A stretch of 64,000 nt of DNA from Owenia fusiformis (Eukaryota; Annelida; Polychaeta; Sabellida; Oweniidae), in NCBI GenBank assembly GCA_903813345.2, contig CAIIXF020000007.1, positions 16,970,714 to 17,034,713 of the forward strand, in the 5' to 3' direction. Both the position numbers and the translations under genes were made by a program. Below the pieces are notes generated by a model, which saw only the letters and a list, made by a program, of their open reading frames with translations, was not told where the DNA came from and did no database searches. The stretch's first letter is position 1. Each line of letters starts with the position of its first letter. This document shows positions 269 through 51,300 of this stretch, one piece after another.

Positions 269-3200
269 CTGTTCCATGACTTCAGGTGCCATCCAACATG
301 GTGTTCCTACAAATGTGTGTCGACATTGATCCCTGGACAGATCTTTACCAGTTGCCAGCCATGCAGATACTCCAAAATCTGAAAAATGAGGAAGAGAAAT
401 TATTTCACCATATAGTAAAACCTGAACATGCCCCGTGTAGACTGTTTTTGTAACAATATTACTCATATTTTGAAGACTGGAACTGCCAAGGGAGCTTGAA
501 TAATACCATAATATTTGTAATGACCATCTCCCAACAAAATACTTGGTCCAAAGAGAACCTTATATAAATATTTTTACCAAATTGTTCCACTGCATGCAAC
601 AGAGTATCGAGAATAATGTCTGCAAATCCTCCTTGGAGTGACCTTGAACTCCCATGAGCAAATAAGCATGTTTTGACATTTGACCTTTCAGGCAAACTGA
701 TAGCACAGGCTTCACTTAAGCAATCAATTTACAGAGAGAGATAGTGGTTGATTAATTTTGAATGAAATACAAAGAAAATATGAACTTAGTCTTAACATTC
801 ACGTCAAGGGCTAGAGTTATGTTATCATTGATATATTTTGACATTTCAGCTATAAATGTGCATACCTACTAACAAGAATCTTCATGCCTCACACTAAACC
901 ATAAACTAACAAAAGTTTAACCCAAACTTTTTCACTCTTATTTATATGTAATGGTATGATTTAGAAGACTCAATAAAATATATTATACTATCTTGTGATG
1001 ACTCCTCAATCTTGATTTGTGATGACTTCTTCAAAAGGCCTATATGTCATGTGCTTCTAGGCTTGCTACCTTCATATTTTTAAAGGCTGTCTTGTCAGGG
1101 TATTAAGAGTAAATCTACATAGTGTTTCGATATTACTGTCCCCCATTCTTGATAGTTTCCCCTCATGTTATATATCATGTGACTTGTTCAATCAATGTCA
1201 CAAAGTTGAATTTTAAAGAATGAAAATTTTAACACAATCAATCATTTTTCATTGAACACACACTCATTCATAATTTAATTTCTCTTATTAAAGTAATGGT
1301 GGCCCTGAAAAGGGCCGTTTTGTTTGTTTGAGATCTTATCTCATTATAAGATCTGGTTAAAGGCCTGTTGTAGGCTGGCTTCAGCAATAGCAGTGTCATA
1401 TTCATACTTCTTGGTCTCTGCAAAGACACAGAACATCTGCATAGTCTCTTCATAGCACGCCATCTTCAGGCGTAGACTGTAACAGAAGGCTGATTTCTGG
1501 TTTCTCTTGGCTCTTTTGTAACGGGTCTTCAGCATGGAGATCTTGTACCTTATGGCCACCACTTGCTCAGCTGCCTTGATGCATGCTTTACGTAGGGCTG
1601 CAATCCTGTCTGGGTCACAGGTATACATGGGGTTGTCAATGGCAAGGCTGTTTGATGATTCCATGTTGATTGATTTGATTTTGGTTGTTAGCTTGTATGT
1701 TTCAGTTGTAGATAATGATTCCCTTCCAGTCTGCTTGGTATTTATAAGAAATCGGAGTGACATTTGAGCAAGGGATTTAGACTGTGACATCTCTTCTCAG
1801 AGAATGACATGACATTGAGTAGTGTTGTCAAGACATTGAGCAGCTAGTATGACATCATTTTGAGTAGGTGTCAAATGGATATATTTCTATAATGGAAAGA
1901 TTTCAGTAGATTGCATTGTTTATAAAATCATGGGTGTATAAAACAGGGGATTATTTTGAGCAGTCATGCCAAACAGGAGATTAACCGTAGGAGATTAACA
2001 GGGAGATTATGAGGAAGATTATCTGTGAACAAATAAACATAATCAGGAGATTAAAACATAATGTTGAAAAGTAGGTGATTACAAATCCAGGGATAGATTA
2101 AAAAAATCTAAAATTATAATCTCAATCATTTACAACCTCTGTATGAGTAACTAAATTCATTCCAATGACATAATATGCCTGCATCATAAAGTTAACTTTG
2201 CATCTCTATTTTTAGAACTTAATATTTCTATCATTGTCAAATATGTATTAGACAAAATGCCCTAAGAGAAAGTAACACCCAAGATATGGCCAGTCATAAC
2301 ATACATGTGCAAAACACTCGTGAAATAATTCCTAATTTTTTTTTGCAAAAACTTGGGTTTGTGAAAATTTTGCAGTATTCTTTTAAGACATTTTTGAAAT
2401 ACTGACATTTTACAATACAAAAACTGGAAAGATGTTTGAAAGAAATCACTGATTCAAAGAGGATTTGCCAGATGAAATCATATTTGTGATGGCAGTAAAT
2501 TGATTGAAATAAACAATTTAAAACATAACCATATGAATCAATGAATCAGTTTCTATTTTGTAAACAAAAGGTGGCCCAGAAAGTATCTTAATTAAAACTG
2601 AATAATAAATACTAGATAAAGATTTAATCAGACATAGCTGGTATTCACATTCATCACACACAACCATAAAAATCATGATTCAGTTTCTCTTTTGTAAGTA
2701 AGAGGTGGCCCTGAAAAGGGCCGTTTGTTGTTTGAAATGTCTCATTATAAATACCGCATCCAAGCAGCAGCTATCGCACTGTGATATTTACACTTCTTGC
2801 ACTCGGCATCATCATATAACACTTGCAGTGCCTCCTCATAGTGGCTCAACATCTTGAGACGTAGACCGTACATGTAACAGAATTTCTGCTTCTGGCTCTG
2901 CTTCAGTTGCTTGTAGCGGCTCTTGATCATGTGGATCTTGTCACAGAGGTTGATACACTGCTCAGCAGCCTCCATGAAGTCAGTGCGAAGCTGAAGGATC
3001 TTGTATTTCTCACAGGATGACATTAGAGGGTAGACAACACTCAGGCCATCTTGCAGATTGTCAAATGCTTTCATTGTTGTGTTCATTGTGTGTTCTTGGG
3101 AGGTTATGAATCACAATCCATCTCCCTGTGTATTTATTGGAAATTGGTCACATTTGAGCAAGGGATTTAAACAGTGACATCTCTTCTCAGGGAATGACAT

Positions 3201-6200
3201 GACATTGAGTAGTGCTACAGAGATATGACATCATTTTGAGTAGATGTATTACTGTCATACCAATGGATTATGTCTTGAAATCTTGGATACTTACAACAAA
3301 GAGATTATCTCTGATTGTTTTTTATTGCACAACAAACATCTTTATCTTATTACAATCCCAATTGCTCCCACTGTTGGGACGGAACGGATACAACATTTTC
3401 CTATTACATAGAATGATTTCTATGATCATAAGATTGCATTACGTGGAAGTTTAAAACATGGGGATCACTCTTACTATCAAGAACTTTATACATTTTAGAT
3501 GTTTTGAACAGACCAGGCTCTATGTCTATAGAAAATATCAAAAAATGGCTCTGTGACAGCTTTTTTTTAATAATGTACTACTAAAACATAGTTTTACCTG
3601 CAATTCTAACTGTTCCATCTTCACCTAGTAATATGTTCCCAGCCTTGATGTCCCTATAACAGAAAACATGCACCAATGAGAATGGCAAGGATGTGCTCTT
3701 CTGCCAAAGGTAATGCATCATAGGGTTTTCATACATTTTCATCTAATCTCTTATGTGTAGTGGGTGAATATATTTTTAGTGGAATATTTTTACAGAACTT
3801 CTGTAGGTTAATGATGAAGAGTGAAAAATTCAGGGACTAAAATATGACACTTAATATCTACAAATTCAAAAAATAAGATAAAACCAAAAAATCTACAAAT
3901 TCAGGCCTCCTAGGTTTTGACTCATGCGGTCGTCAGAACCAGTCTCGCTGACCTCTTCTGAGCTTATTTCCCCACTCGCGCATTGACTTCGTACATTGCT
4001 AACCACACACCTGATTGGTTCTTTGGAAGGGAACTTGATGCACGTGTGGAGAAATAAGTTTGGGGGACAGGAACTGGTGGTTCGCGACTGAAGAAATGAT
4101 ACTCCCATTATGAGAATGTTGTTCGGGTGGAAGGAATGCGGTCAGCGAGGTCGAGGGAATCTCAACTAGGATGCCTGAAATTGCTGATACTAACAATGTT
4201 CTCCTTATATGTAGGTTAATGTTACCTGTGTATTTGTCCGTTGGCATGGAAATAATCTAGCGCCTTAAGTACTTCTTTTAAAATAGTTGCTATAGTTACT
4301 TCATCTAAAACGCCATTTTTATAATTGCCACTTCTAACTCTCTGTTTTATTATATCGAGTAGAGAGCCTGGAAAAAAACATCAATTAATATTTAAATCAA
4401 TTTTTGTTTTAGTGTCAAAATATTACTAAATATTTTTCATTATGCTAACAATAGCCATATATAACATCTAAATCTTGTGCATGTAACAGTAAACCAGTCA
4501 ACTGCACATTCTTTTCTTCATCCCATTACTTTTGTTTGAATATAATTGAATAAGCTTGAATGTACATTATACATTACACATACCAGTTACTGTATATGAT
4601 TATCAAACATGGCATCAACATTTTAATCATGTATGAACATGATCTTAACCTTTAGAGGACAACCAAAAATATAACCACCTACTATTCAACATGAACACTG
4701 ATCCATAGACGAGTATCTAGTCATTTTTACCATTTACATGAACCAGTTTACAAGTTCCATAATTCTTTATCAAAACAACCATACCATTTAACTATGGATT
4801 TGAAAAATAAATCAAAAATCATTCCGACATAAGACCTACCTCCACTTACTAATTGCAGGACAATCCACAGTTCATCAACATCCATGAAAGACGTGTGATA
4901 TTGGACAACATTCTCATGTTTACACTGGCTCATCACAGTGATTTCTTTCTAGAAATTTAGCCTCTTCAATTTACAGTACATCTCAAAACCTTTGATCCTT
5001 ACTAGGTCATTTAAGATCAATTTTGAGATGGGCTGTAGATTAAAGTAATATGTTAAGACATTTCCCCAGAGCTTGGTATGAGTAGTTTAAGCATGATTTT
5101 TATCTAAATGCCTTAGAGTTCTAAATATTAAGAAAAAGTGAACCTTATGCTAAAGGAACCCATTTTGCTGATCTTCCCAAATTGCCGTAAACAAGGTAAT
5201 GGAAGGTAATATTTCTTGAATAACATTCAAAATAACAGGTGCAAAGCAATGCCATTTTTGTATGTATGTCTGCATTACAGACCCTTCTACTCCACCATTT
5301 GTTGGGTGTAAGTAAGTCAGACAAACTTGCATATGCATGGGGGAATATTACATACAAGGACTTATGGCTTACAGTATCTAGACGTGTCTAGAAATAATAC
5401 CAATTAGACCCTTTAGGGAAACATGTCCAAACATAGATAACCGAGAATGTAATCCTCTTTCCAATTTAAAGGCCACCATTTTCAAAATGGTTGCTCGCTA
5501 GACAAGTTGTCACCAGCAGAAGTAATATGCTTTTAAGTAGCCACATATAAAATTGAAAAAAATCGCCCACACATACATGTAAATGCTGGCCATTTTCTAA
5601 AATGGCCACCTAATACCCAAAATGTCATAAGACAGTGTGCAATCCTTACCAGTATTCACATATCAAATATGAACAAAATCGCTCTATTACTTTTTGAATT
5701 ATAATAAAAAATGTAAAATAACACACATAAAAATAGTGGCCATTTTTCAAAATGGCCGACTACTCCCCAAAGTTTTATTTGACAATGTGCCATGCTTAAG
5801 TATTCACATATCAAATATGAACAAAATCGCTCCAATACTTTTTGAGTTATAGTAAAAAATGTAAAAATGACAGCCATTTTTAAAATGGCCACCTACTACG
5901 CGAAGTGTCATGAGAGAGTGTGCAAGGCTCATAAGTATTCACATATCAAATATGAACAAAATCGCTCTACTACTTTTCAAGTTATAGTAAAAAACGTAAA
6001 AAATGGTGGCCATTTTTCAAAATGGCCGCCTACTACCCAAAGTGTCATTAGACAGTGTGTATAGTATTCACATATAAAATATGAACAAAATCGCTCTACT
6101 ACTTTTTGAGTTAAAGTAAAAAATGTAAAATAACGCACGTAAAAATGGCGGCCGTTTTTCAATATGGCGGCCTACTACCCAAAATTTCATTAGACATTGG

Positions 6201-38300: not shown

Positions 38301-40840
38301 GACTAAATTTTTTTTTCAAAATCATCTACGTGTTCTCAGAAATTCAAATCTGACTTTAGATTTGACTTAAGATTTGACATTTGACCTTCAATGACCTTCT
38401 CAAAGTCAAAAAAGGTCAAAAAGGTCTTTTTTCAACTTGCTTCAAATTGACTAAATTTTTTTTTCAAAATAATCTACATGTTCTCAGAAATTCAAATCTG
38501 ACTTAAGATTTGACATTTGACCTTCAATGAGCTTCTCAATGTCAAAAAAGGTCAAAAAGGTCTTTTTTCATCTTGCTTCAAATTGACTAATTTTTTTTTC
38601 AAAATCATCTACATGTTCTCAGAAATTCAAATATGACTTTAGATTTGACTTAAGATATGACATTTGACCCCTTCAATGACCTTCTCAAGGTAAAAAAAGG
38701 TCAAAAAGGTCTTTTTTCAACTTGCTTCAAATTGACTAATTTTTTTTTCAAAATCATCTACATGTTCTCAGAAATTCAAATCTGACTTCAGATTTGACAT
38801 TTGACCTTTAATGACCTTCTCAAGGTCAAAAAAGGTCAAAAAGGTCTGTTTTCAACTTGCTTCAAATTGACCAATTTTTTTTTTCAAAATCATCTACATC
38901 TTTTCAGAAGTTCAAATTTGACTTTTACAAGTTCTCAGAAGTTCAAATCTGACTTTAGATTTGACCTTCAATGACCTTCTCAAGGTCAAAAAGGTCTTTT
39001 TTCAACTTGCTTCAAATTGACTAATTTTTTTTTCAAAATCATCTACATGTTCTCAGAAGTTCAAATCTGACTTTAGATTTGACATTTGACCTTCAATGAC
39101 CTTTTCAAGGTCAAAAGGTCTTTTTTCAACTTGCTTAAAATTTACTTAATTTTTTTTTCAAAATCATCTACATGTTCTCAGAAGTTCAAATCTGACTTTG
39201 ACATTTGACCTTCAATGACCTTCTCAATGTCAAAAAAAGTCAAAGAGGTATTTTTTCAACTTGCTTCAAATTGACGAATTTTTTTTTCAAAATCATCTAC
39301 ATGTTCTAAGAAGTTCAAATCAAACCTTCTTAAGGTCAAAAGGTATTTTCCAACTTGCTTTAAATTGACCAAATTGTTTTAGGTGGTGACATTTTGTCAT
39401 GTTAATGCCTTGTTTTTTTTATTGTTTATTACTGTATGGGGTGTAGCTATCACTTGCAATGATGTTAGAATTTCTTCACCTGAGTGATTTTAATGTTTTG
39501 ATATCACACTTGATAGATGTATGACTTCTGAGCAAGTGGTTTACATATTGATAACTTCATCTCATGATATTGCCATGTCATATGATTTTTTACTATAAAT
39601 AGATTTCATTTCTACTTCAAATATTTCTCTCGGTCAAAAAATGATTCCACCCTGCCGATCTTAGGAAATCAAAATAAATGTGTCATTTTCACTTTATTTC
39701 CTCAGGTTGGAGGATCCAGTGAAGTTGAGTGCAATGAAAAGAAAGACAGAATCAATGATGCCCTCAATGCAACTAGAGCTGCTGTAGAGGAGGGCATTGT
39801 ACCAGGTGGTGGTGTTGCCCTCATCAGATGTCTCAAAGCCCTTGAGGGACTTCAGACTCCAAATTCTGACCAACAAGTCGGTAGGTCAATCAATCTAGTC
39901 TCAATTAATTTTATATCAATGAGACTTCACTGATTATTAATTGTGTAACTTGTAACTCAGCAAAGCGTAGAATAACAATGAATTCAGAAAAGGGGTGAAC
40001 TTGAGATTGTTGTTACTGGCTTTTTGTTAATATATGTATTCCTATTTACAGGTGTTGATATTATCCGTAAGGCTGTCAAGATCCCCTGCTTCCAAATTGC
40101 CTCAAATGCTGGAGTTGATGCCAATGATGTAGTACAAAGAGTCATGACTGAATCTGCAGAGAATGGTTACGATGCAATGAACAACACATTTGTTAATATG
40201 GTAGCTAATGGAATTATTGATCCAGCAAAGGTGAGTTATCATCTCATATTGTTTTCTCAACTATTGTGATATATGATCACTTGCAATGATGCTAGAATTT
40301 CTTCACCTGAGTGATTTCAATGTTTTGATATCACACTTGATAGATCCATGACTTCTGAGCAAGTGGTTTACCTTTTATGAATAGATTTTCATCTATTGAA
40401 TTTAATTATATAAAATCTTAGACAAAATTTAATGATCTCATAAAAGAAAGACAAAATAAACATCTGTCTAGGCAACAACTCAAATATTGGTTGATTGATT
40501 TAGTTCAAATATCATAGGCTGATAGCTTATGGGCCTAGGACCTTAATAAGTTTATCATTGGATTGTTTGTAAAACAGAGATTCTGTATACTATTATTTCA
40601 AAGGGCCCCGGAGGAATATATTTTTTCACAAATGTTCGATTACTATTCATTTGTATTATATTTTCTCTCCAGGTTGTCCGAACTGCGTTAACAGATGCCT
40701 GTGGTGTTGCCTCATTATTGTCTACAGCTGAGGCTGTTGTCACTGAATTGCCCAAGGAGGACCCTCCCATGCCAGCTGGTGGTGGAATGGGGGGAATGGG
40801 AGGCATGGGGGGAATGGGAGGAATGGGGGGCATGATGTAA
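32308..40840 (+). CDS. HSPD1: HSP60 mitochondrial chaperonin, complete coding region
   Basis: Matrix ATP-dependent folding machine that works with HSP10. Eleven coding exons: 32308-32499, 32705-32957, 33900-33982, 34222-34411, 34671-34839, 35208-35307, 35545-35652, 37646-37783, 39706-39880, 40052-40230, 40673-40840. All junctions are AG/GT with agreeing phases; 584 residues, against 573 in human. The N-terminus [20 protein letters not shown] is a basic mitochondrial presequence, cut probably before [12 protein letters not shown]. Seen: [13 protein letters not shown] (nucleotide site), [19 protein letters not shown] with the catalytic-type Asp, VPGGGVAL, and a C-terminal GGM repeat ending in MM. 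An acceptor (tttag, ending 32300) just before the ATG implies a non-coding first exon upstream, as in vertebrates. The gene is convergent with COQ10. Confidence 0.98.
33261..33863. mobile_element. MITE in HSP60 intron 2
   Basis: Ends ACCGTATTCTCTGTAATTA and its complement, bordered by TA. A degenerate internal copy of the end lies near 33661. Confidence 0.8.
35866..37584. mobile_element. Hairpin plus 20-bp-TIR element in HSP60 intron 7
   Basis: Inverted arms 35866-35934 and 35938-36008 form a long hairpin (AGGGATATACAATATATCTT in both). It abuts an interval 36011-37584 with perfect inverted ends, GTATTCCATACCTGATGAGG and its complement. A second GGGACATA-rich hairpin lies inside the right end (37455-37550). 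No coding sequence is seen. Confidence 0.7.
37860..39396 (-). repeat. HINE-like element, family 4, in HSP60 intron 8
   Basis: Left end: 10-bp-stem hairpin ATGTCACCAC-caaaa-GTGGTGACAT (37864-37888) and a GGCGTCCGGCGGTTG tract. Core: about nine units of roughly 120-165 bp, each with TTCAACTTGCTTCAAATTGA, a T-run, TCATCTACATGTTCTCAGAA and TTTGACCTTCAATGACCTTC. Right end: GGTGGTGACAT (39382-39392), the inverted copy of ATGTCACCACC. By analogy with the other families it is inverted. Confidence 0.8.
39448..40371 (+). repeat. 97-bp direct repeat flanking HSP60 exons 9 and 10
   Basis: Copies at 39448-39544 and 40276-40371 match closely (ATCACTTGCAATGATG at the start, GAGCAAGTGGTTTAC at the end), one in intron 8 and one in intron 10. 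No inverted ends are visible. Confidence 0.85.
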
Positions 40841-48300: not shown

Positions 48301-51300
48301 ACCATTGTGAACTAGGCATCATCATATAAAATTTGAACCAAATCTGTTCACTGGTATATGAGTTATCAAAGATTACGTTTTTTTACGAATATGGGCCGCC
48401 ATCTTGAAATTCAGCCACCATCTTACAAATTATTTCTTGAACAGAGCTACTGTGTCCCTAGGCATAATCATATAAAATTTCAATCAAATCTGTTCACTGG
48501 TATTTGAGTTATCAAAGATTACGTTTTTTACGAAAAATTGCCGCCATTTTGAAATTATGCGGCCATCTTGAAAATGTTTTGTCGGACATAGCTACTGTGT
48601 CCCTAATAATAATCATATAAAATTTGAACCAAATCCGTTCACTGGTATTTGAGTTATCAAAGATTACATATTTTTACAAAAAATGGCCGCCACTTTGAAA
48701 TTAAGCGGCCATCTTGAAAATCTTTTTTTGTGCGAAACTCCTTTGTCCCTAGGCATCAGCATATATGAGTTATCAAAGATCACGTTTTTTAAGGAATTTG
48801 GGCCGCCATCTTGAAATTCAGCCGCCATCTTGAAAATTATTTTTTGAACAGAGCTACTGTGTCCCTAGGCATAATCATATAAAATTTCAACCAAATCTGT
48901 TCACTGGTATTTGAGTTATCAAAGATAACGTTTTTTACGAAAAATTGCCGCCATTTTGAAATTAAGCGGCCATCTTGAAAATGTTTTGTCGAACAGAGCT
49001 ACTGTGTCCCTAAGCATCATCATATAAAATTTGAACCAAATCCGTTCACTGGTATTTGAGTTATCATACATTACATATTTTTAAGAAAAATGGCCGCCAT
49101 TTTGAAATTAAGCGGCCATCTTGGAAATCTCTTTTTGTGCGAAACTCCTTTGTCCCTAGGCATCAGCATATAAAATTTGAACCAAATCCGCAAACTAGTA
49201 TTTGAGTTATTAAAGATTACATTTTTTACGAAAAATGGCGTCCATTTTGAATTCAGTGGCCATATTGAAAATTCCTTCTCGAGCAGAGGTCCTACACCCA
49301 TAAGGCATAAGCCTATAAAATTTGAATCAAATCCATGAAACGGTATTTGAGTTATCGCCCGGACAAACAGACGGACGAACGGACGGACGGACGGCTTTCC
49401 TATATCCCTCTCGAACTTCGTTCGGTGGGATAATGAGCCCTCAATGCTTGTGGAAATGGATATTCAAATAAGTCAAAGTCCATTTTATAAAATTCAGATA
49501 AATTTTCCAATTGATTAATTGATAAAGTTGAATAAGCTTTCTCCATAGAAAGATTTTTTGATTTGTTATATGGTTTTTCCTCAATGACTGAATGTTTTGC
49601 CCCAAGTTTCTTGAAAATGAAATTCCCTTCTTTGGCTAAGTTTTCATATTTGCCAATGTAATCATACTGTACATTACATGGACTACAAAGTTGAAAAAAT
49701 GGCAGCCAGTGTTCATTGGGGAGTTTTCTCTGCAGAACTGCATAATCCACAAAGTCGACAAAAGGAGCAATAGACATAATTTTTGTCCCAGAATTCTTGT
49801 GATATTTTTCCAATAGTTTTTTTCGATGTTTTGAAAAATGATCATCACCACTTCGAACTATTTTATCATTGTATGCTGAGAGTAGTCGAGAGAAAGGTTC
49901 TCTGACAAATGTGAATTTAGTATAAGTCTTCAAACGATACAAGATGTCTGCTTTTTTGTATTTCAGCAATCTGGTAACATATTTTCCATCATAATGTATA
50001 TCCACTGGTAGACTAATATTCCCTTTGGACAAATGTATAAGACTTTTTATTATATATGTAGAACTAACTTTGGGAATGTAACAATAAATTACTTTCAAGT
50101 TGTCATCAACAAGAATATTTTTTGACAGTCGGATTTTTTTCGATTTTTTTCTGTGACAAGTTTCTCTTATTTTCTGCCTTCTTTGTTGCATGCATCTTTC
50201 TATTTCTGTATCATTATCTGCTTGAAACTTCATGGCATTTTCCACCATTGTATTAAGTTTAATTAAGGTTTCATTTTTATATATGTTGTCCATCTGTGCA
50301 TTATCCACTATGTTGCTAAAAGTTATGTCCTCACCATTATCCGTTATATTGATATAAGTTATGTCCTCACTTTCATTTGACGTAAGAGTTGAAGACTGCG
50401 CTTTTATCAAGCTTTGGGATAAGATTTTCTTTACCGCCAACTCCTGTGGGTGTTGTATCTTTAAGAAGAGAGCTACGGAAGCAATACAGGAGATAAGCAT
50501 CAAACCCTTTAAGGACACAAGTCCAGTGAGTCTACAAGTTCTAAGCCTCATCACAATTGTTCTTTTTTGGCATCTAATCAGAGTGCAGTCTATATATTAA
50601 CTGACTCTTACCAGAGGAATAAAATAATGTTTTATCTATATCCAAGCTCTTATTGTCTCATGATAATAATTTACTGCTTTATAAACCCATGCCATGGGTC
50701 CACTCATTTTTGTAGTTTAACATAGCCAGATTTAAAGTTGTCCTGTTGCAAGCCTGTTTTAGAAAGCAGTGTTCTTAGTATTCTATAGCAGTACAGGAGT
50801 GGCGAAATAGTCTATTGTCACATAAATCCCCTTATTTAATGCTTGACAATACTCCAATATACATTATGTCTTAGTGCAAATAAAGAAACAGTTGCTAAAT
50901 CTTCCAATGCAAATCCTGGGAGCTTATACATTGAGCTGTTTGCAGAGTGGGTAGGGGTCTTAATACCAATGTAAGGCAATGAGAAATTGGTCATTTAAAA
51001 TAAATATTTTCTATTATTATATCACTGTCATATTCCTCACACTCTGATTGGTGTATGTCCTACATGTGACTTAACTAGATAACAGCAACGTCAAAACATA
51101 GCAAATCCCATCAAACAACCATTGCTGCCATTTTTAAAATGAGCGCCCACTAGCCAAATTGTCATAAGAATGTGTAACATGGTTCTAACTTTTATTGAAT
51201 ATTCATATATAAAATGTCTACAATTTAGTCCTTTACTTTTCTAGTTATAGCACAAAAACGTAAAATAACAAACATCAAACATGTCAAAATGGTGACCATT

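Follow-up and report, generated by a model that had tools for sequence, protein, structure and literature searches.

The 3' ends of replication-dependent histone mRNAs are made in a particular way: SLBP occupies a stem-loop, the U7 small nuclear ribonucleoprotein (snRNP) a downstream element, CPSF73 cuts the transcript and no poly(A) is added (PMC7026596, PMC1924863; all papers are cited here from the parts of their text that were accessible). AAAGAG is the purine core of the mouse H2a downstream element (PMC7026596). In the accessible text this 3' end is described as histone-only (PMC1924863), and SLBP is said to have no target known outside the histones (PMC2781718); among the open-access titles and abstract beginnings listed, no report of a non-histone gene with this 3' end was found. 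Here we analyze a 64,000-nucleotide (nt) stretch of the annelid Owenia fusiformis (assembly GCA_903813345.2, contig CAIIXF020000007.1, positions 16,970,714 to 17,034,713 of the forward strand; hereafter the window), in which two adjacent genes, A and B, carry such 3' ends and encode proteins without any match to histones. We consider it probable (roughly 0.7) that the pair belongs to a helical superfamily whose genes have the layout of replication-dependent histone genes and are run as a non-histone SLBP/U7 regulon. The features of the locus are the following, in window positions.

1344-1664, minus strand: coding sequence of gene A, single exon, 106 residues (list of open reading frames, ORFs)
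2745-3086, minus strand: coding sequence of gene B, single exon, 113 residues (ORF list, pairwise comparison, codon model)
1301-1316, minus strand: histone stem-loop of gene A, GGCCCTTTTCAGGGCC (Rfam RF00032, 39.3 bits)
2707-2722, minus strand: histone stem-loop of gene B, GGCCCTTTTCAGGGCC (RF00032, 39.2 bits)
1282-1286, minus strand: purine core AAGAG of gene A (AATAAGAG, weaker than that of B), 14 nt past the stem
2687-2693, minus strand: purine core AAAAGAG of the U7-type downstream element of gene B, 13 nt past the stem
1737-1748, minus strand: TATA box of gene A, CTTATAAATACC
3129-3140, minus strand: TATA-like element of gene B, CCAATAAATACA, weaker than that of A
1749-1871, minus strand: conserved upstream region of gene A
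3140-3243, minus strand: conserved upstream block of gene B (proximal part 3140-3222, plus CTACTCAAAATGATGTCATA at 3224-3243)
2523-2582, minus strand: relict of a third 3' end, limited to the right arm, ACC and the downstream stretch, 83% identical to 2658-2716
379-3597, minus strand: GT..AG intron of an OXSR1/STK39-type kinase gene, holding A and B (splice-site letters)

Both stem-loops exceed the RF00032 gathering score of 34 bits, the matches spanning 1277-1321 and 2681-2727 on the minus strand. With up to two mismatches allowed, the 16-base stem pattern occurs twice in the window compared with 0.04 expected, and none of 100 shuffles contained two. The 3' stretches of the two genes also fold better than their shuffles (z -4.25 and -3.15). 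An initial annotation had described perfect histone stem-loops 23-28 nt after the stop codons, an ACC flank, a U7-type purine element and a short 5' untranslated region (UTR) led by a TATA box. Its observation of histone-type 3' ends on a non-histone pair is confirmed: the stem-loops are perfect and the ACC flank is present in both genes, the distance from stop to stem being 27 nt in A and 22 nt in B rather than the range given. The purine element is found in both and is weaker in A; the TATA-led short 5' UTR holds for A, and B has a weaker TATA-like element in its place, transcription starts being placed from the TATA position only. Judged by these signals, A and B are putative histone-type genes, with a stem, a purine element, no introns, short UTRs and their own promoters. 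Their upstream blocks share four words of 15-20 bases that occur nowhere else in the window, and the 9-mer TGATGTCAT of these blocks is found at three further places. A third stem-loop at 2523-2582 was considered and rejected: such a stem is not formed there (z -0.70) and RF00032 has no match.

Chance ORFs of at least 106 residues are not rare in the host intron (34 of 500 shuffles, six frames), so that ORF length alone is insufficient evidence for genes. The two proteins are 42% identical across 99 residues, and under codon models their divergence is not neutral (omega 0.32, p 4.6e-4; in the 88-codon core omega 0.25, p 8e-5): purifying selection is acting between A and B. Identity reaches 88% in the proximal promoter (73/83) and 93% from the stop to the end of the stem region (38/41) versus 62% in the coding sequence (203/330), so the regulatory ends are better kept than the protein; it is 53% between TATA and ATG (28/53) and 51% past the downstream element (36/70). 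The reading frame of A extends open to 1796. A 148-residue form of A was rejected, its ATG lying upstream of the TATA box and the matching frame of B being interrupted by a stop.

The proteins were searched against Pfam at E<=10, where A found nothing and B one sub-threshold match (0.18), and against PDB sequences, where the best values were 0.37 for B alone and 0.1 for a profile of A and B; no histone appeared in either. As a control, the Pfam search found PF00538 in H1 and PF00125 in H2A and H2B of the same genome; an H4-like protein of this genome reaches PF00125 only below the cut-off. The description of two related intronless non-histone genes of 106 and 113 residues is thus upheld by the identity between the ORFs and by these searches. 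AlphaFold predicts a two-helix hairpin for A (predicted local distance difference test, pLDDT, 84; predicted template modelling score, pTM, 0.63) and one long helix with no hairpin for B (pLDDT 75, pTM 0.37); in neither model is the predicted fold that of a histone. None of 415 Foldseek matches reached E<=0.001.

No relatives were found among 5.8 billion proteins by word-based searches with B alone and with the A and B alignment, which low-identity relatives can escape, so that restriction to this genome cannot be claimed; these searches used window proteins as queries, and the subfamily called II below is better conserved than that of the window. Viral contigs yielded no relatives of A or B either. 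As a control, a sulfotransferase from the same window found itself and ten others in the 5.8-billion set, six of them named as animals. Since neither A nor B was found in a set that holds another protein of the window, annotation based on poly(A) may overlook stem-loop genes.

Within the genome (498,259,871 bases, 525 contigs), relatives are numerous. Searching with one subfamily II protein yielded 83 matches, among them fragments; most lie clustered on C3, C6, C8 and C12. A protein search is blind to stem-loops and is therefore a fair test of their association with the family. Among the stems listed, at least 42 of the 83 matches have an exact GGYCC..GGRCC stem at most 320 nt downstream on the same strand. 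Ten more, in an array at C3:20.03 Mb, were matched by coordinate reading to a stem of the type AGTCC..GGACT, in which the outer pair is changed on both sides; AAAAGAG is kept in the single gene of this array whose 3' end was read. The question posed with the initial annotation, whether homologues also carry the stem-loop, is thus answered positively for at least 52 of the 83 superfamily matches, and the window pair is no lone oddity: it belongs to a superfamily and, beyond that, to a larger collection of genes with stem-loops.

Subfamilies I (that of the window), II, III, IV and V are linked by hidden Markov model (HMM) searches that leave the target group out (E-values with Z set to 100,000): 3e-10 for I against V, 2e-9 at best for I against II, 1e-17 for II against III and 5e-29 for II against IV. 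The HMM of subfamily I finds II, IV, V and four of the five III proteins (3e-10 to 0.008), and that of II finds all six subfamily I proteins (1e-10 to 0.012). Group VI is weakly joined to the superfamily (0.3) and VII is not joined. A motif Y-S-L-R-L in the second helix is common, as judged by eye. Purifying selection was significant (p<0.05) in 13 of 15 superfamily gene pairs, with saturation in two of these (42-28 and 18-55); the two remaining pairs (35-72 and 62-63) are close ones. At least eight D or E residues occupy the last 25 positions in 23 of 34 distinct superfamily proteins. From the proposal of a new family of small basic helical proteins, "new" and "helical" can be retained; "basic" applies to the six window-type proteins (isoelectric points 8.7-9.4) and not to their acidic-tailed relatives.

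Across subfamilies I-V the purine core lies mostly 12-14 nt past the stem. In eight stems picked by hand as representative, all 48 cells pair, two of the six pairs vary on both sides, and the covariation score was reached by none of 500 shuffles; the stem is thus conserved with compensated changes. One superfamily gene (L089, C8:35005000-35007000) has two successive stem-loops, with a purine core only after the second.

Stem-loops were then considered genome-wide. RF00032 gave at least 74 matches, 73 of them over the cut-off; this is a lower bound, as 75 of 98,199 candidates were scored. In our own sorting of the upstream DNA, 25 of the 74 follow histones, 28 superfamily genes (a figure that takes in the weakly joined group VI, a truncated member and one with a broken frame) and 21 neither. 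The stem form GGYCCTTNTNAGGRCCA occurs 244 times in the genome compared with 0 for the reversed pattern (positions listed as far as C8:9.855 Mb), the GGCCC form 115 times compared with 0, and AGTCCTTTTCAGGACT 16 times compared with 1. Upstream DNA was read for 102 stem-loops, namely the 74 RF00032 places and 28 taken mostly from pattern lists outside long histone arrays, one stem-loop of L096 being left out; 36 belong to the superfamily (L089 counted twice), 33 to histones and 33 to other sequences. This sample is non-random, and the shares of the three classes are not those of the genome. Among the 36 are proteins from which the HMM concerned was built, the independent test being the searches that leave the target out. 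Histone classes come from BLASTP against seed sequences, except that H4 and the H2A with a broken frame in L107 were identified by eye: 24 H1, 5 H2A (one with a broken frame), 3 H2B and 1 H4-like. AAGAG is found at most 36 nt past the stem in 32 of 36 superfamily, 27 of 33 histone and 32 of 33 other cases.

The superfamily genes thus resemble replication-dependent histone genes in their TATA promoter, single exon, stem sequence, ACC flank and AAAGAG-type element, and the histone side of this likeness is present in the same genome, where H1, H2A, H2B and H4-like genes share the layout. The distance from stop to stem is at most 36 nt, as in histone genes, in 18 of the 36 superfamily cases; unlike histone genes, the other 18, mostly of subfamily II, have 51-151 nt. 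The proteins, unlike the gene layout, are unrelated to histones, and the upstream promoter words differ by eye.

By analogy with histone genes we infer how A and B would be expressed. RNA polymerase II would start at the nested promoter within the kinase intron, SLBP would bind the stem-loop of the A and B transcripts, the U7 snRNP would pair with the purine element, and CPSF73 would cut between the two. The mRNA would be left free of poly(A) and would be made, translated and destroyed together with histone mRNAs in S phase; oocytes and early embryos may perhaps store it. The same processing is expected because the anatomy is that of the genome's own histone genes, and because the same 3' end stands on unrelated non-histone genes, SLBP/U7 would control a regulon and not histones alone.

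Several observations weigh against this regulon. Among the 83 matches, 31 were not paired with a stem-loop, their 3' ends being unread; 13 of these lie outside the region of the listed GGTCC stems and 18, some of them fragments, inside it. The HMM of subfamily III reaches the B-type window proteins weakly (E 0.37-1.2). In the test of eight stems only two of the six pairs vary, the count of two-sided pairs was reached by 52 of 500 shuffles and that of pair types by 490 of 500. The sampling of the 102 stem-loops, as said, was non-random. The TATA-like element, seen in 26 of 26 superfamily, 22 of 25 histone and 4 of 7 other genes tested, was counted without a shuffle control in an AT-rich genome. 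The promoter words of H1 and H2A/H2B were not seen by eye in superfamily promoters, so co-transcription with histones is not implied; TGATGTCA-like words recur by eye in the promoters of subfamilies I and II, and transcription of the superfamily may be tuned differently from that of histones while processing is shared. Lastly, the signs of function are weak: model B is not a hairpin, and no Foldseek match reached the threshold given above.

The alternative that survives best, possible though on balance unlikely, is that A and B are dual-ended, using poly(A) downstream in most tissues and reserving the stem-loop end for the germ line or for dividing cells, as described for some histone variants. 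ATTAAA lies 65 and 117 nt past the stops of the two genes, so that polyadenylation is possible, a further point against the exclusive use of the histone pathway. According to the accessible text, dual processing is published for H2A.X (PMC7807067) and C. elegans histone genes contain both signals (PMC1924863); A and B may thus be like H2A.X-type two-ended genes in using poly(A) too, and unlike them in that H2A.X is a histone. Against this, AATAAA is absent from the 344 nt scanned past each stop, and the downstream element is about as well preserved as that of histone genes.

We find it improbable that the nested stem-loops act on the host gene, with U7-dependent cleavage within the intron in S phase truncating the OXSR1/STK39-type pre-mRNA before the DFG exon. 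The orientation of the pair lends itself to this idea: A and B, with both signals, are nested in sense within the intron. This 3.2-kb intron interrupts the Asp codon of DFG. The exons on both sides translate to kinase-like sequence whose best PDB matches are SPAK (5d9h, 8e-81) and OSR1 (3dak, 5e-79), the next-best kinases following at 2e-35. Two more B-then-A pairs exist on C7, however, at 15.85 and 16.78 Mb (the B-type copy at 16.78 Mb has TATAAATA as its TATA-like element), and a search of 17 kb around either of them gave no kinase at E<=0.001; moreover, both ORFs are under selection.

Very little speaks for the view that the 3' ends are remnants, the ORFs having arisen from, or been copied into, former histone genes whose stem-loop lost its role. 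The decayed third 3' end at 2523-2582 and the 9 of 102 stem-loops without a preceding ORF are what such a history might leave; the better conservation from stop to stem (93% versus 51% beyond), the compensated stem changes and the recurrence of the element in subfamilies I-V with its purine core at a mostly constant distance argue the other way. That A and B are extremely diverged histones is the least probable view of all, as gene architecture, size and the basic charge of the window subfamily are set against the lack of any histone match, models with a hairpin or one long helix, and acidic relatives.

We therefore retain the non-histone regulon for A and B, and the departure from the histone-only rule for the stem-loop 3' end is real, involving several genes under selection. 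What these proteins might do can be suggested with much less assurance. The acidic tails, the hairpin, the arrays and a probable co-expression with histones make a role in chromatin or histone handling the one that we favour, though with low confidence; acidic-tailed, chaperone-like members and the basic window subfamily would then give stoichiometric help to histones or new chromatin. The predicted hairpin of A and the acidic tails of many relatives recall acidic histone chaperones and small helical chaperones such as prefoldin and TBCA. The generic structure matches include TBCA as well as prefoldin, and TBCA is a sub-threshold Pfam match of one subfamily II protein (E 0.03).

The 33 other stem-loops follow diverse sequences, for which the labels GDSL relict, DDE relict, RING-like, helical (VI, VII, L103) and ORF-less are our own judgement. 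They comprise one intact 337-residue DDE_3 transposase (PF13358, 7.8e-18), together with three relicts; two GDSL-like proteins, of which one passes the Pfam cut-off (PF00657, 5.4e-8) and the other stays below it (PF13472, 1.2e-4), with two possible relicts; three Cys-rich proteins of 92-100 residues; one RING-like protein (by eye, no Pfam match) and one relict; a family of 203-229 residues with two members and two partial copies; four ORFs judged helical by eye, the frame of one being broken; nine stem-loops that no ORF precedes; and three unclear cases. It is tempting to suppose, at slightly less than even odds in our view, that this lineage turned SLBP/U7 into a general S-phase and germ-line module serving superfamily arrays, zinc-finger-like and hydrolase genes and Tc1-like transposons. 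If so, a transposase would be made exactly at DNA replication. Dozens of non-histone users in one genome would make it testable why histones alone usually have this 3' end, by what route new targets enter the SLBP/U7 pathway, and which other products need to be dosed along with histones.

The intact transposase gene, of Tc1-like DDE_3 type (L028, C3:1550800-1553600), has its stem-loop at C3:1551305-1551350, 52 nt past the stop, with AAAAGAG and a TATA-like element 58 nt before the ATG. No inverted repeats of 12 exact bases were found around it in the DNA examined, so its mobility is unproven. Relict transposase copies with stem-loops are present at L057 and L075, and one of another type at L080. 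An ORF-less repeat with stem-loop and downstream element recurs at L037-L041, L045 and L050; in its copies, additional hairpins resembling the stem-loop lie immediately upstream, such as AGTCCTTTTCAGGACT in four.

Some observations concern the histone genes themselves. An array at C8:9.8 Mb looks like a core histone cluster, with an H4-like gene in L100 (by eye) that has the same type of 3' end and the frame-broken H2A in L107. GGTCC..GGACC was considered as a marker of non-histone genes and rejected, this array having the same stem. Linker histone genes are many and diverse, H1 standing behind 24 of the 33 histone-linked stem-loops examined. One of them (L092, C11:24244200-24246200; PF00538) has an RS-repeat N-terminus, a very basic tail and a stem-loop, with the look of a sperm-type H1. 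On C335, stem-loops follow each other from position 433 on at a spacing of about 2.66 kb, and the one that was read lies behind an H1.

Elsewhere in the window, 23805-64000 contains HSP10-like and HSP60-like exons in a head-to-head arrangement, together with one COQ10-like and one SF3B1-like exon (by eye), a gene set which we take to resemble the human neighbourhood. Between HSP60-like exons, at 39454-39536 on the plus strand, there is a SNORD36-like match of 31.5 bits (cut-off 30; E 0.47). The sulfotransferase used as a control above corresponds to a single-exon ORF at 49406-50551 on the minus strand (PF03567), with no more than 34% identity to any relative found.

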